A stretch of DNA of 46,895 nucleotides from Cytophagales bacterium (GTDB lineage: Bacteria; Bacteroidota; Bacteroidia; Cytophagales; Microscillaceae): the NCBI GenBank assembly GCA_004293905.1, contig RDZE01000029.1, forward strand, positions 1-46,895. The letters are read 5' to 3'. Every line of letters starts with the position of its first letter. Position 1 is the stretch's first letter. Under the pieces are notes generated by a model, which saw nothing but the letters and a program-made list of their open reading frames with translations, made no database searches and was not told where the DNA came from. The translations under genes were made by a program, and so were the position numbers. Positions 25,153 through 30,431 of the stretch are shown here, in pieces.

Positions 25153-25827
25153 TCAAAAATCTATCTTTTTTACTATACCAAAGCCCAAACTTACCCCTTT
25201 TCCTAAGCCCATATAGTTGGGAAGAAATACGTTGGTTTTGAATGTTAGGCTAAAAGCCATCATTTTTATGTTTTTGTAGTACATCAAACGAGGTTCTTGC
25301 ATTTCGGTAATGTTTACTTTTATCTCATTTTCCACTTGCCAAGCAATCCCTTTGGCAAAAGCCAAGATATGCCCAATGATTTTTTTCTCTAAAAATTGTG
25401 TTTTTTCTACCAAGCCTGTCATTTTTTGGTACTCTTCATAACTTTGTTGGTTAAGAGGAAGCCAATTGAGGAGGGTATAATGCATCATTTTGTCCCAAGT
25501 TTGCATAGTAAATTCTTGCATGTTGAGTTTATGAATACTCATTTGGTACTCTTCACCTGCTATGTTGAGTGTCCAATCGCTTTTTTCAAAAAACTTATGA
25601 ATCACCTCCACGCCTTCTCCCATACAAATAATGGTAGGACGCTTGGCTATAGTTTTGTACTGCACTAAGGCATATTGGTAGTTAAATTTTTCATCGTCTA
25701 AGTGATTGTGAAAGAGTAATGTATCTTTTTGCCCTACTTTCTGAATAATAGCCCCTCTGAATGCCGCAATTTTAGAAGGGTGAAGCTCTGCATTGAATTG
25801 TACATTAAGAAATTTTAGCTTTTTCAT
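25153..25827 (-). CDS. Cas6-like endoribonuclease family protein (orphan)
   Basis: 224 residues. The pattern resembles Bacteroidota Cas6 proteins: an N-terminal RAMP-like strand (LKFLNVQFNAEL), RGAI, LFHNHLDDEKFNYQYALVQYK, and a C-terminal glycine-rich loop GKGVSLGFGIVKK, the usual Cas6 signature. His in LFHNH or nearby could be catalytic. Cas6 cuts repeat hairpins in CRISPR transcripts, yet no cas gene or CRISPR array lies in the window. A cluster of hairpin RNAs starts 885 nt away, past the Crp/Fnr gene. Assignment is from pattern only. Confidence 0.6.
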   Translation of the reverse strand: MKKLKFLNVQFNAELHPSKIAAFRGAIIQKVGQKDTLLFHNHLDDEKFNYQYALVQYKTIAKRPTIICMGEGVEVIHKFFEKSDWTLNIAGEEYQMSIHKLNMQEFTMQTWDKMMHYTLLNWLPLNQQSYEEYQKMTGLVEKTQFLEKKIIGHILAFAKGIAWQVENEIKVNITEMQEPRLMYYKNIKMMAFSLTFKTNVFLPNYMGLGKGVSLGFGIVKKIDF

Positions 25828-26509: not shown

Positions 26510-26711
26510 ATATTTTTTACTTTCACAAGAGCCCCTTTGTAAAATCACGATTCGATAAACGCCCGAGATTCATACCCACTTTGCAATTTTTTATCGTTTT
26601 GTGTAAAATTATCTCACTGATAATCAAGCATTTAAGAAAAAAACTCCCTTTTTATAAATATTTTTTTCTACTGCGCAAATCCATTGCGTAGTGCCTATTT
26701 TACTTTGTAAC
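26510..26711. other. non-coding stretch with two hairpins, upstream of the RNA cluster
   Basis: No frame of note. Two inverted repeats are visible: ATTATC/GATAAT (26608-26624) and ACTGCGCAA, loop ATCCA, TTGCGTAGT (26670-26692; nine pairs, one G-T). Downstream, TACTTTG at 26701-26707 is one base short of the -7 consensus and could start the RNA transcript; its -33 part is poor. Confidence 0.4.
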
Positions 26712-26770
26712 ATCAAAATAGATAAAGGCTCTTTGAAGTTCTTTGGTTCGAAGCCCAAATTATTTTGATA
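26712..26770 (+). ncRNA. candidate mini tRNA-like element
   Basis: ATCAAAATA (26712-26720) pairs over nine bases with TATTTTGAT (26761-26769). Inside are a small hairpin AAAG-GCT-CTTT and a T-arm-like hairpin TTTGG, TTCGAAGC, CCAAA (26742-26759). The strand continues into ACCC at 26770-26773, resembling an acceptor plus T-arm with an almost-CCA end. It lies 4 nt before the full tRNA-like element. It lacks the AGGTCAA module, so its membership in the family is uncertain. Confidence 0.4.
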
Positions 26771-26774
26771 CCCT

Positions 26775-26899
26775 GAAACAATAGTTCAATTGGTAGAACG
26801 CCAGCCTTTTCAGTTTTTCAATTACCTGCAAAAGGTCAAGCAAGACTTACTTCTAAGGTCCCGCTGGAGGTGTTGGTTCGAGTCCGGCTTGTTTCACCA
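26775..26899 (+). ncRNA. tRNA-like RNA with encoded CCA and a 50-nt insert in the anticodon loop
   Basis: A full cloverleaf: acceptor GAAACAA/TTGTTTC (26775-26781, 26889-26895), T8 A9, D-arm GTTC/GAAC with loop AATTGGTA (GG conserved), anticodon stem CCAGC/GCTGG (26801-26805, 26863-26867), variable AGGT, T-arm GTTGG, TTCGAGT, CCGGC, discriminator A and CCA. The anticodon loop position holds CTTTTCA (seven nt, U33 present) and then an extra hairpin (26813-26862) before the stem closes. Without the insert the loop would show anticodon TTT (Lys) but with C instead of a purine at 37, so a normal decoding role is doubtful. All stems pair perfectly apart from G-T pairs in the T stem. Confidence 0.8.
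26813..26862 (+). other. insert in the tRNA-like element: circularly permuted copy of the AGGTCAA/AATTACCT module
   Basis: Order here: GTTTTTC (26813-26819), AATTACCT (26820-26827), loop GCAAA, AGGTCAA (26833-26839), GCAAGAC (26840-26846), TTACTTCT (26847-26854), then AAGGTCCC. GTTTTTC pairs with GCAAGAC at six of seven positions and ACCT with AGGT. The two downstream elements use the same blocks in the opposite connection (open at AGGT/ACCT, closed at the other end). Confidence 0.75.
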
Positions 26900-26906
26900 A
26901 ATTTAT

Positions 26907-26976
26907 AGGTCAAGTTTTGCTTACTTCTCGCCGAAAGGCACTTCACTGTTAATGAACCCCAGCAAAGCAATTACCT
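26907..26976 (+). ncRNA. structured RNA element, copy 2 (70 nt)
   Basis: AGGTCAA (26907-26913), stem GTTTTGC (26914-26920), TTACTTCT (26921-26928), hairpin GCC-GAAA-GGC (26930-26939), hairpin TTCA...TGAA (26942-26956), CCCCA, stem GCAAAGC (26962-26968), AATTACCT (26969-26976). The 7-bp stem pairs with one G-T; AGGT pairs with ACCT; CAA against AATT forms an asymmetric internal loop. Fixed blocks are identical to those in the other copies; the stem sequence is not. Confidence 0.75.
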
Positions 26977-26999
26977 TAAATTTTTGTAAGAACATATCA

Positions 27000-27059
27000 A
27001 GGTCAATCACTACTTACTTCTCACTCATCTGGTAATGAATCTCAGTAGTGAAATTACCT
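27000..27059 (+). ncRNA. structured RNA element, copy 3 (60 nt)
   Basis: AGGTCAA (27000-27006), stem TCACTAC (27007-27013), TTACTTCT (27014-27021), hairpin TCAT...ATGA (27025-27038), CTCA, stem GTAGTGA (27045-27051), AATTACCT (27052-27059). The stem is a perfect seven pairs and unrelated in sequence to copy 2. It ends 32 nt before the ATG of the 747-aa protein with no terminator in between, so the RNA probably forms part of, or is cut from, that mRNA leader. Confidence 0.75.
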
Positions 27060-27080
27060 GATTATTTTAACTTTAAAACA

Positions 27081-27091: not shown

Positions 27092-29335
27092 ATGAAAAAC
27101 TTATGGACAGTCAGTCTAAGACAACAAGCCATTTTTATCCCCAAAGAGTGGAGAAAAAATGCTACCACCCCTCACCTACGCAGTACTACAGCAGGCTTAG
27201 TAGCCAACCTAAGTTCATTAGGATTTGGTGTAGCCGAAAATTTATTGAAGGTGCTCAATGAACTCAACCCTAAGCAACAATTAGAAATATTAGAGCACTT
27301 AAAACAAGCCACTGGAGTAGATAAAAACTGGACTCCATTGGTCAAAGGTTGGGACGTACCTACAGGCGAAAACTATGTAGACCATCTTATGACTTTTTTT
27401 GCCAATTTGTTCGGAGCAAGGGGCACACAACTACGATGTGGGCATACTATTCCTGCGGGTACTTTCCCTTTGGAACGATACAATGGTTGCCCTTTTTGCG
27501 GAACTCCCTTCGAAATCGGTAAAATAGAATACAAAAATCAGGGAAGTAACAAAAAAATCTTAACCCTTTGGACAGAAAAAGAACTCTACACTTTTTTCGA
27601 GGATTTATTAGGCTCAAAAACTGCCTTAGATGCCACTCAAATGGATAGCTTACAGGTGTTATTGAGTGTATTAACTCTTCCTAAAGAAATCAATATAGGT
27701 ATGAAAGAAACCTTAGTAGCCGTGATTGATATTTATAAAAAACAGAATATGCCCGAAAAAGCACAAGCATTATTCGGTTCGCCTACTGATATTTTACGCT
27801 ATTTATGGTACAAACACACTGGTTTTTTCCAAATCATAGAACCTGCAACACTCATAAGACGCAAAACAAAAGCCCACAAACACCTTCGCCGCAGTTTAGA
27901 TACGAGTGCACAGGCGCGTTTGGCAGCCGTAGAAGAATTGCAACTAAAATATAGCCGCCAAGAAAGCATCATAGTAGCACAATGGCTCAATGGTTTATCG
28001 CTCACAGTAGAAAAAATATGCGAAGCTATGCATCCTAAACGCTCCATGTGGGTACGCTTCATTCGTGCTTTGCGCCTTACGGAGTACGCCAAACGAAAAG
28101 GTTTTGAAAAACTCAATCGCATTTTAGATGTATTTTACCGCCAAGATTATACTGTTTGGCAAGCACATGTCAATCATTTCAGGTTGCGAAGCAATGAAGA
28201 AAGAACTTTTCAGTTACTAAAGCAACGTCCCGGCTTGTTTGCACGCTCTTTGTTCTCTAATATGCTTTGGTTTGGCGAAACCTCTACTATTGAGGCTTTT
28301 AAAGAAGTAGTAGACAAAGTACCTGCAAGGCTACTATTCACGCTCAATATGTATGCTGAAAACTATTTCAACCCTCAACAAATGCGAATTGTGAAGCCTT
28401 TGGGAGGTGTAGCCAAAAGAATAGCACCTCATTCATTATTGAGCCTTTACGACGAAAAACAACGCCTACAAATGCAGGATAGCATTGCAGATTTATGTTT
28501 GTTGGCTATGAAAAAACGTTTTTCTGCCCTCAGTACCAAAAATAGAACTATCTATATACACCCTCAACTTTTCAAAATCCCTGTTTCGATAGGTGATAGA
28601 AGTGAAAACGTGCAAGATTTGCCCTCAGCACTTTTAGGCACAGTTTTCCCTGTGGAAGGCGATACAGTACGGTTGTTTATGCAGTGGGGCAATGGTATGC
28701 CCGCGCAACACCTCGATATGGATTTAAGTTGTAGAGTCGCTTATTCTGATGGGCATTTGGATATTTGTTCCTTCAGCCAACTAACCACTACAGGCTGTAA
28801 ACACAGCGGCGATATTAGGAGTATTCCTCATAAAGTAGGCACTGCCGAATATATAGACCTCAATATCAATGAACTCAGAAAGGCAAAAGCCAAATATGTA
28901 GCCTTTACTTGTAATGCCTACAGCCAAGGCGCATTGGCACTCAATATGGTTGTAGGTTGGATGAACAGCAAACACCCCATGCGAATTTCAGAAAAAACGG
29001 GGGTTGCGTATGACCCCTCTTGCGTACAGCATCAGGTAAGAATTACCAATCCGCTCAATAAAGGTTTACTCTTTGGTGTTTTATTGGTCGAAAGTCGAGA
29101 AATCATTTGGTTAGAAATGCCTTTCGGGGGGCAATTAGTCCAAAACTTAGATGTTCGCAATGTAGAGGCAATTTTGGCAAAAATCAGCAGCAAACTCAAT
29201 ATTGGAAACTTATTGCTTTGCAAAGCCGATGCCCAAAAATTAGCCTTAGTAGAGAAACCCGAAGAAGCAGACGAAAGTTATGATTTGAAATGGGCTATTA
29301 ACACCGCAGCAGTTACAAAATTATTGGTAGATTAA
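27092..29335 (+). CDS. MXAN_6230/SCO0854-type protein with RING-like motif and TerD-like C-terminus
   Basis: 747 residues, no signal peptide or membrane helix. A RING-like or zinc cluster lies at 114-137 (LRCGH, then CPFCG; Cys116, His118, Cys133, Cys136). Residues of about 150-450 are helical, HEAT-like and basic (PKRSMWVRFIRALRLTEYAKRKG, QRPGLFARSLFSNMLWFG). The region of about 540-690 resembles a TerD/stress-protein domain: DMDLSC, HSGDIR, GTAEYIDLNINEL, FTCNAYSQG, VVGWMNS, IIWLEMPFGGQ. This fits the family annotated as MXAN_6230/SCO0854 RING-domain proteins, whose function is unknown. It follows the RNA cluster directly and is followed by a terminator and a WYL regulator. Binding the upstream RNAs is a hypothesis, not shown by sequence. 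Confidence 0.75.
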   Translation: MKNLWTVSLRQQAIFIPKEWRKNATTPHLRSTTAGLVANLSSLGFGVAENLLKVLNELNPKQQLEILEHLKQATGVDKNWTPLVKGWDVPTGENYVDHLMTFFANLFGARGTQLRCGHTIPAGTFPLERYNGCPFCGTPFEIGKIEYKNQGSNKKILTLWTEKELYTFFEDLLGSKTALDATQMDSLQVLLSVLTLPKEINIGMKETLVAVIDIYKKQNMPEKAQALFGSPTDILRYLWYKHTGFFQIIEPATLIRRKTKAHKHLRRSLDTSAQARLAAVEELQLKYSRQESIIVAQWLNGLSLTVEKICEAMHPKRSMWVRFIRALRLTEYAKRKGFEKLNRILDVFYRQDYTVWQAHVNHFRLRSNEERTFQLLKQRPGLFARSLFSNMLWFGETSTIEAFKEVVDKVPARLLFTLNMYAENYFNPQQMRIVKPLGGVAKRIAPHSLLSLYDEKQRLQMQDSIADLCLLAMKKRFSALSTKNRTIYIHPQLFKIPVSIGDRSENVQDLPSALLGTVFPVEGDTVRLFMQWGNGMPAQHLDMDLSCRVAYSDGHLDICSFSQLTTTGCKHSGDIRSIPHKVGTAEYIDLNINELRKAKAKYVAFTCNAYSQGALALNMVVGWMNSKHPMRISEKTGVAYDPSCVQHQVRITNPLNKGLLFGVLLVESREIIWLEMPFGGQLVQNLDVRNVEAILAKISSKLNIGNLLLCKADAQKLALVEKPEEADESYDLKWAINTAAVTKLLVD

Positions 29336-29342
29336 CTTCATC

Positions 29343-29374
29343 AAAAGCAAGGTATTTTATATCTTGCTTTTTTT
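29343..29374 (+). terminator. rho-independent terminator after the 747-aa protein
   Basis: AAGCAAGGTAT (29345-29355), loop TTT, ATATCTTGCTT (29359-29369), eleven pairs with one G-T, followed by five more T. Confidence 0.85.
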
Positions 29375-29399
29375 CCTACAAAATAGTCATTTTTGCGAT

Positions 29400-30431
29400 A
29401 TGCCTCTTAATAAATTAGCTCTTTTGCGCTATAAAACCATAGACGAGTGTCTAAACAATCCATACCGTAAATGGACATTGGACGACCTCATAGAGAAAGT
29501 GTCCGAAGCACTCTACGAATTTGAAGGAATACAAGAAGGTGTAAGTAAACGAACCATTCAAGCAGATTTACAGCTGATGCGCAGCGATAAATTGGGTTAC
29601 AATGCTCCTATTATTGTGGTAGATAAAAAATATTATTGTTATGAAGATAAGAATTACAGCATCACCAAAGTCCCTATTAATAGTGCGGATATGGAAAAAT
29701 TTAAGAGTGCCGTACAAATGCTCAAACAATTCAGCGTATTCAATCACTTTGATGATTTACAAGCCACAATATTACGTTTAGAAGGTAACTTACAAAAAAA
29801 CACAAAAGGCACAAAACCACTAATACAGTTTGAGAATAACAACCTTTTGAAAGGGATTCAACTCATACAACCACTTTATGAAGCTATTTTGCAACAAAAA
29901 ACATTGCTCATTAACTACCAATCTTTCAAAGCACATTCTGCACAACAAAACATTTGCTATCCTTATTTATTGAAAGAGTATAGAAATCGTTGGTTTCTGA
30001 TAGGTCAAAAAAAAGCTCATCAAAGTCTTTCCACATTTGCTCTTGACCGTATCATAGGTATTGAAAAATTGGTTTCAGAACCCTTTTTACCCTACCAAGG
30101 CATTGATTTTGAAGTATATTTCTCCGACCTCATCGGCGTAACCAAAAGCGAAAAAGACAAAGCCCAAAAAGTTGTTTTGGAGGTAGACAATATTATCAGC
30201 CCTTATATTATCACCAAACCACTCCATCAAAGCCAAATCATTTTGGCACAAAACGAAAAAACTACTACTTTCAGCATAGAGGTAATTCTTAATTTAGAGT
30301 TAGAGAGGGAAATTTTAGGCTTTGCCGAAAATGTTAGGGTAATAGAGCCACAAACACTCAAAAAACGCATTGAGAGGCGATTGGACAAAGCTAAAAAACA
30401 ATATGAAAACCCGCAGTCTTTTATTCGTTAA
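29400..30431 (+). CDS. WYL domain transcriptional regulator
   Basis: 343 residues from ATG 29400. The N-terminal 70 residues form a winged helix (LLRYKTIDECLNN, GVSKRTIQADLQLMR). The middle is a WYL domain: TLLINYQSF, CYPYLLKEYRNRWFLIG, FALDRIIGIE. The C-terminal part (VVLEVDNIISPYI to RVIEPQTLKKRIERRL) is the WCX extension. WYL proteins often sense nucleic acid or nucleotide ligands and control defence or DNA-damage genes. It lies just downstream of the 747-aa protein, on the same strand but after a terminator. WYL partners of this protein family would fit a stress-response locus. Confidence 0.9.
   Translation: MPLNKLALLRYKTIDECLNNPYRKWTLDDLIEKVSEALYEFEGIQEGVSKRTIQADLQLMRSDKLGYNAPIIVVDKKYYCYEDKNYSITKVPINSADMEKFKSAVQMLKQFSVFNHFDDLQATILRLEGNLQKNTKGTKPLIQFENNNLLKGIQLIQPLYEAILQQKTLLINYQSFKAHSAQQNICYPYLLKEYRNRWFLIGQKKAHQSLSTFALDRIIGIEKLVSEPFLPYQGIDFEVYFSDLIGVTKSEKDKAQKVVLEVDNIISPYIITKPLHQSQIILAQNEKTTTFSIEVILNLELEREILGFAENVRVIEPQTLKKRIERRLDKAKKQYENPQSFIR

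Follow-up and report, generated by a model that had tools for sequence, protein, structure and literature searches.

The array of hairpins upstream of a RING/TerD protein gene in a Cytophagales bacterium raises the question of what RNA it encodes and what that RNA might do with its neighbour. The window, meaning the whole 46,895-nt stretch of DNA that was analysed (assembly GCA_004293905.1, contig RDZE01000029.1), had been described in a sequence-only reading as holding three copies of a structured element, with fixed blocks separated by 7-nt strands that change from copy to copy while still pairing. Direct reading of the sequence places every block exactly where it was first noted (Table 1), and the variable strands pair as reported, at 6 of 7 positions in copy 1, 7 of 7 with one G-T in copy 2 and 7 of 7 in copy 3. 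The three-copy family therefore stands, but that reading overlooked the reversed strands of copy 1 and its tRNA-like host (26775-26896), and the family proves larger than described, extending to a partner gene, an RNA-repair neighbourhood, five phyla and phages. We propose, with a probability of roughly 0.6, that the copies are modules of a conserved, covarying, predicted noncoding RNA that likely binds the RING/TerD protein in a particle for the surveillance or repair of RNA, above all tRNA.

Architecture of the array

The core module consists of an outer stem P1 (AGGT/ACCT), an asymmetric loop (CAA/AATT), a variable 7-bp stem P2 and a second loop (TTACTTCT/CA). Copies 2 and 3 are freestanding, the core being followed by a variable head, whereas copy 1 has the reverse strand order because it is set in the anticodon arm of a tRNA-like gene. 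In a pattern count over the whole genome (3.29 Mb), exact AGGTCAA-N7-TTACTTCT was confined to the three copies; the 10 matches comprised these 3 and 7 with two mismatches, and a reversed-pattern control likewise gave 7. The impression that the module is not a known RNA family held at the gathering scores of Rfam 15, which, across the loci scanned, assigned the core to no family and recognised only the tRNA host of copy 1.

Upstream of the copies lie a predicted operator and a possible promoter box, which we take to resemble the TAnnTTTG box of Bacteroidota. Of 81 loci, 66 have an inverted repeat of the TACGCA..TGCGTA type in the 2.5 kb upstream, against a control rate of 41 in 552 kb of downstream sequence. 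Directly 5′ of the tRNA-like gene, at 26710-26775 (+), is a hairpin, ATCAAAATA...TATTTTGAT, with a T-arm-like GGTTCGAAGCC; it stands where relatives have a first module, overlaps a weak match to YrlA and may be a decayed fourth module.

Table 1. Positions of the array and its neighbouring features in the window
Feature	Position	Strand	Basis
Inverted repeat ACTGCGCAA-N5-TTGCGTAGT, predicted operator	26670..26692		Sequence; similar repeats in relatives
TACTTTG, possible promoter box	26701..26707	+	Sequence only
tRNA-like gene with encoded CCA, anticodon loop replaced by copy 1	26775..26899	+	Rfam RF00005
Anticodon stem 5′ strand CCAGC, pairs with GCTGG 26863-26867	26801..26805	+	Rfam alignment
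Copy 1 core	26811..26854	+	Strand a (CA-P2′-AATT-ACCT), then b (AGGT-CAA-P2-TTACTTCT)
Copy 1, first pieces	CA 26811-26812; GTTTTTC 26813-26819; AATTACCT 26820-26827	+	Sequence
Copy 1, later pieces	AGGTCAA 26833-26839; GCAAGAC 26840-26846; TTACTTCT 26847-26854	+	Sequence
Copy 2, freestanding hairpin module	26907..26976	+	Sequence, genome pattern count, Bacteroidota locus count
Copy 2, 5′ pieces	AGGTCAA 26907-26913; GTTTTGC 26914-26920; TTACTTCT 26921-26928	+	Sequence
Copy 2, 3′ pieces	CA 26960-26961; GCAAAGC 26962-26968; AATTACCT 26969-26976	+	Sequence
Copy 3, freestanding hairpin module	26997..27062, core 27000-27059	+	Best window match of model R1
Copy 3, 5′ pieces	AGGTCAA 27000-27006; TCACTAC 27007-27013; TTACTTCT 27014-27021	+	Sequence
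Copy 3, 3′ pieces	CA 27043-27044; GTAGTGA 27045-27051; AATTACCT 27052-27059	+	Sequence
Partner protein, 747 aa: predicted helical repeats, RING-like zinc site, then TerD domain	27092..29335	+	
WYL/WCX-domain protein	29400..30431	+	Pfam (29364-30431 scanned); homologue near gene in 48/81 loci

Association with the gene in Bacteroidota

The elements have homologues in relatives. Searching GTDB genomes with a protein profile yielded 365 relatives; in the best 80 loci, which were kept, core strands lie within 800 nt upstream of the gene in 80 of 80, occurring 335 times on the gene's strand and 0 times on the other. None was found in 761 kb of control sequence (the gene, its downstream side and the region more than 2 kb upstream); the zone 800-2000 nt upstream, into which some arrays continue, was left out of this count. 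The largest array counted, in locus L071 (gene start 1837), has eight core b-strands upstream of the gene.

Gene and RNA also occur together. Eleven of 395 Bacteroidota genomes carry the gene (E ≤1e-20), and all 11 have the RNA as well. A Bacteroidota covariance model, R2, built from copies 2 and 3 and 11 other elements, matches 12 of the 395 at E ≤1e-4, namely the same 11 and G265; we rejected G265 as a twelfth RNA-bearing genome, its single weak match (39 bits) falling inside an open frame of 186 aa that runs on the other strand. The match of R2 to copy 2 (26900-26983) is by construction, copy 2 being a seed. A viral spread of the Bacteroidota form was likewise rejected: 115 stretches matched exactly in 2.9 million viral contigs, and these were judged chance because the 80 listed had one match each and no arrays.

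Pairing and covariation

Selection on RNA structure had been claimed from the three copies, and it is borne out by the larger alignment. Among 366 core b-strands (80 loci plus the window), a partner strand, chosen by motif alone, lies downstream of 209 and upstream of 121, with 34 having both and 70 neither. The P2-forming spacer has a length of 7 nt in 348 of 353 cases. A loose pairing test proved uninformative (327 observed versus a control average of 256 of 366), and a swap test and a tree-based null were used instead. P2 of freestanding modules pairs at 6.39 of 7 positions versus 3.80 when partners are swapped (maximum 4.21 over 500 swaps), and slid registers reach at most 3.23. The excess is weaker for the tRNA-type modules (5.07 versus 4.44 swapped, maximum 4.74), 41 of 121 having three or fewer pairs, perhaps because the motif rule chose the wrong partner in nested arrays. 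We scored covariation in 164 distinct freestanding cores against a tree-based null imitating that of R-scape, with 20 replicates. The strongest 8 of 1,035 column pairs were all predicted ones, namely the outer pair of P1 and all seven pairs of P2; the null never equalled seven of the eight, and the remaining one had an E of 0.2. The inner P1 pairs were neutral because their columns hardly vary, and pairs outside P1 were unsupported by covariation in these cores.

tRNA-shaped modules

The host of copy 1 matches the Rfam tRNA family (RF00005) over 26775-26896 with 57 bits against a gathering cut-off of 29. Like a tRNA, it has acceptor, D, T and anticodon stems; it differs in that the element takes the place of the normal anticodon loop, with 53 positions inserted in the Rfam alignment, and ARAGORN rejects it, calling 0 genes. 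Of the first 11 loci scanned, that of the window included, 10 contain long Rfam tRNA matches (103-137 nt) and L048 has none; such matches also occur in 2 of 6 plasmid loci, both from Bacteroidota, and in 11 of 16 further loci. By pattern, 29 of 33 long matches contain a b-strand, with the a-strand first in 28; of the four that lack it by this pattern, the shortest match comes from L075 and the rest are variants from L077, L076 and L069. In most of the Bacteroidota arrays examined, one or more tRNA-shaped genes thus have the element in place of the anticodon loop, which also accounts for odd long tRNA matches in this phylum. Most modules have no tRNA head. A strict regular expression for such genes found them in 5 of 81 loci only and, being too rigid, was superseded by the Rfam scans. 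Three Bacteroidota loci have clusters of ordinary tRNA genes on the upstream side of the array (L065, 1640-4215; L066, 34-1543; L074, 3906-4327).

Other phyla and phages

Homologues of the partner gene on secondary replicons and in phages gave 19 bacterial loci outside Bacteroidota, 3 inside and 5 phage loci. In the first 16 loci (3 from Bacteroidota), a count of the motif [AT]T[AC]CTTCT up to 900 nt from the gene gave 19 copies on the gene's strand versus 0 on the other. Inside the genes the corresponding counts were 0 and 3, and the remaining 248 kb contained 16 copies. In 11 further loci, with approximate gene borders for L299, L302, L304 and L306, the count was 22 versus 2; two of the 22, downstream in L298, we take to be chance. 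Outside Bacteroidota the element has roughly the form P1, GG with C and A after it, P2, (A/U)U(A/C)CUUCU, a head, P2′, NNUUUCC and P1′. In an alignment of ten such sequences (A6), standard pairs fill 82.5% of cells versus 57.1% when shuffled and at most 53.8% in slid registers, with double changes in 10 of 13 pairs. These figures hold for ten chosen rows, pared stepwise from 17 (A2) through 15 (A4, another choice of sequences) and 13 (A5), because MAFFT misaligned some; the last three dropped, from phages, had P2′ off register.

A covariance model of the ten A6 sequences, R1, contains no sequence from Bacteroidota or phages. Its best match in the window is copy 3 (29.1 bits, E 5.6e-6); the second (15.2 bits) is far off on the other strand, and copy 2 is missed. 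Further R1 hairpins come from three Deinococcus loci in which the strict motif is missing or doubtful, from Embleya, from Variovorax and from four of the five phages, each on the strand of the gene; the same scan took in L149 and L150, which had supplied seeds. Its 13 matches at E ≤1 in 41 Bacteroidota loci are all on the gene's strand and represent a small fraction of the elements there. Motif and R1 together place a hairpin beside 17 of 19 homologues in four other phyla, neither detecting one in Mycolicibacterium (L305) or one Streptomyces locus (L306). All five phage loci carry the motif, that of LpeD being the one missed by R1. The covarying common core lies beside this one gene family in five phyla and five phages.

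Two further features of the phage loci deserve mention. Matches to tmRNA or permuted tmRNA lie beside the protein gene in three of them (L297, 2042-2344; L298, 1928-2149; L299, 726-1108). In phage RpAliso (L298, 2230-2310), a T-arm and a strand with CCA at its end come after one motif copy; that strand could base-pair with the sequence ahead of the motif, giving an outer stem that resembles an acceptor stem.

Partner protein and neighbouring genes

The array is upstream of the partner gene on the same strand. The protein has a TerD fold and aligns over residues 9-702 to NF041916, the MXAN_6230/SCO0854 family of RING proteins (Prok-RING_4, TerD), with a score below the cut-off of that model; the portions of the records and literature examined describe no RNA partner for the NF041916 family. 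Its N-terminal fold has no good match among solved structures, and PADLOC has no model for it. One search gave 4113 homologues among 7998 scored candidates.

Open frames within about 5 kb of the gene were clustered at 81 loci, many of whose contigs end within that distance. Clusters near the gene include WYL (48 loci), RtcB-like (34), T4 RNA ligase 1-like (Rnl1-like; 16) and Hen1-like proteins (12), identified by a Pfam check of one member each (RtcB, RNA_lig_T4_1, Hen1_N) and, for WYL, of the window's own protein, which is likely a regulator. The RtcB-like cluster is absent from 47 of the 81 loci, a count that includes the many truncated contigs. Pfam also identifies RNase_T in L065 and L074 and T4 Rnl2 in L113, and an annotated rtcR lies near the Variovorax homologue on the opposite strand. 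Phage homologues sit among tRNAs; Weasels2 has RtcB at a distance of 3 kb beyond the homologue, and RcXuper and RpAliso have an annotated (tRNA) nucleotidyltransferase close by. In two Vibrio loci, an annotated RNA ligase family gene follows the homologue by about 3 kb (L150, 10367-11005; L177, 9368-10006). The window genes scanned beside the array include no RNA-repair or RNA-ligase gene; two genes ahead of the array, at 25153-25827 (-), is a gene for Cas6b, the enzyme that processes CRISPR RNA.

Discussion

Our reading of the array as the RNA of a surveillance or repair particle draws on the strand-specific association with the gene, the co-occurrence of gene and RNA, the covariation, the match of R1 to copy 3, the spread over phyla and phages, the tRNA-like modules with their insert, the RNA-repair neighbours and the same plan in YrlA. 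Weighing against it are the loci that lack an RtcB-like gene, the window's own neighbours, the lack of a good solved match or a TROVE profile match for the N-terminal fold, the absence of a tRNA head from most modules, the two homologues without a hairpin, the weaker pairing of tRNA-type modules and the small number of R1 matches. Transcription, binding, function and signal we infer as follows. Cleavage of tRNA would lead to transcription of the array from a promoter that follows the inverted repeat, with the WYL protein in control. The two conserved internal loops of the core would serve as the handle gripped by the RING/TerD protein, and the tRNA-like heads would offer a tRNA surface to enzymes of repair or decay such as RtcB, RNA ligases and a 3′-5′ exonuclease. 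Alternatively, the heads may occupy the protein until damaged RNA displaces them, as Y RNAs are thought to do on Ro60.

The hairpins could instead form a cis-regulatory leader, providing binding or cleavage sites in the RING/TerD messenger through which the protein controls its own level. They are always on the gene's strand and, in Bacteroidota, upstream near the start codon, as such a leader would be. However, they lie 3′ of the gene in Variovorax, Vibrio, Niallia, three Streptomyces loci and phage Weasels2, and a leader needs no tRNA-shaped modules, so we regard this explanation as unlikely. The tRNA shape and the presence in tRNA-rich phages would also suit decoys that bait anticodon nucleases or phage factors, with the protein a mere carrier. 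The usual target of anticodon nucleases is the anticodon loop, and it is precisely this loop that is missing, while most modules offer no tRNA head at all; we therefore consider decoys improbable, even though inhibition of a nuclease is raised as a possibility for YrlA in the part of one report consulted (PMC7790460). Still more doubtful is a spliced tRNA, in which the insert of copy 1 would be an intron, the halves would be joined by RtcB or another ligase, and the freestanding copies would be related processing sites. A near-complete tRNA with an insert in its anticodon loop and the ligase genes near many relatives speak for it; against it, the core is free of any tRNA in most copies and, by our reading, the anticodon stem itself is reduced in some Flavobacterium-type modules. 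A repeat or mobile element without RNA function, suggested by several similar copies side by side, can be dismissed, since the genome has no further exact copies, the element is tied to one gene family and the covariation, including that across phyla, refutes it.

Returning to the surveillance and repair particle, the balance tilts slightly toward a broader view, that the array belongs to a pan-bacterial and phage class of ribonucleoprotein apart from Ro60 and Y RNA, in which an RNA with a UUMCUUCU core, often with tRNA-mimic heads, and a RING/TerD protein would sense and help to repair cleaved tRNAs, and which has gone unnoticed despite its presence in at least five phyla. The open-access literature that we searched holds no description of the RNA or of a link to its partner protein. 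A widespread protein family of unknown function would thereby gain a specific RNA partner and a testable role.

Comparison with YrlA and Ro60

In the parts of two reports consulted (PMC8394870, PMC7790460), the bacterial Y RNA YrlA is described as holding Rsr (Ro60) by its basal stem and PNPase by its tRNA-like domain, and as lying in some bacteria in an operon with rtcAB that is switched on by tRNA fragments. Homology of the present system to Ro60 or Y RNA is not supported. Membership in the YrlA family (RF02553) was rejected at 21.5 bits for 26716-26827 against a gathering score of 69 (E 0.043, or 0.019 in a smaller stretch). The genome gives no TROVE (Ro60/Rsr) match, 10 of 148 Bacteroidota genomes having one, and the TROVE profile matches none of 20 members of the partner family. 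Homology of the partner to Ro60, hinted at by a first, poor structure model, was also rejected, with hhalign probabilities of at most 0.4 against 10 Bacteroidota TROVE proteins, and Ro60 is absent among the best 50 structure matches listed for a better model.

The likeness is one of plan. The array shares with YrlA a stem core and a tRNA-like domain, both present in copy 1, and like the rsr-yrlBA-rtcBA operon it is linked in operon-like fashion to a protein gene, with RtcB or other ligases near it in relatives. It differs in its core and loops and in having several modules per array, and where the YrlA/Rsr operon has RtcR, there is here a WYL gene in Bacteroidota and rtcR near the Variovorax homologue. 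By analogy, the array may follow a Y-RNA-like plan built from different parts: a two-loop stem core, heads of which some are tRNA-shaped, a helical-repeat protein, ligase neighbours and a regulator. If this is true, bacteria and tRNA-rich phages would have at least two separate tRNA-mimic ribonucleoprotein systems tied to RNA repair.
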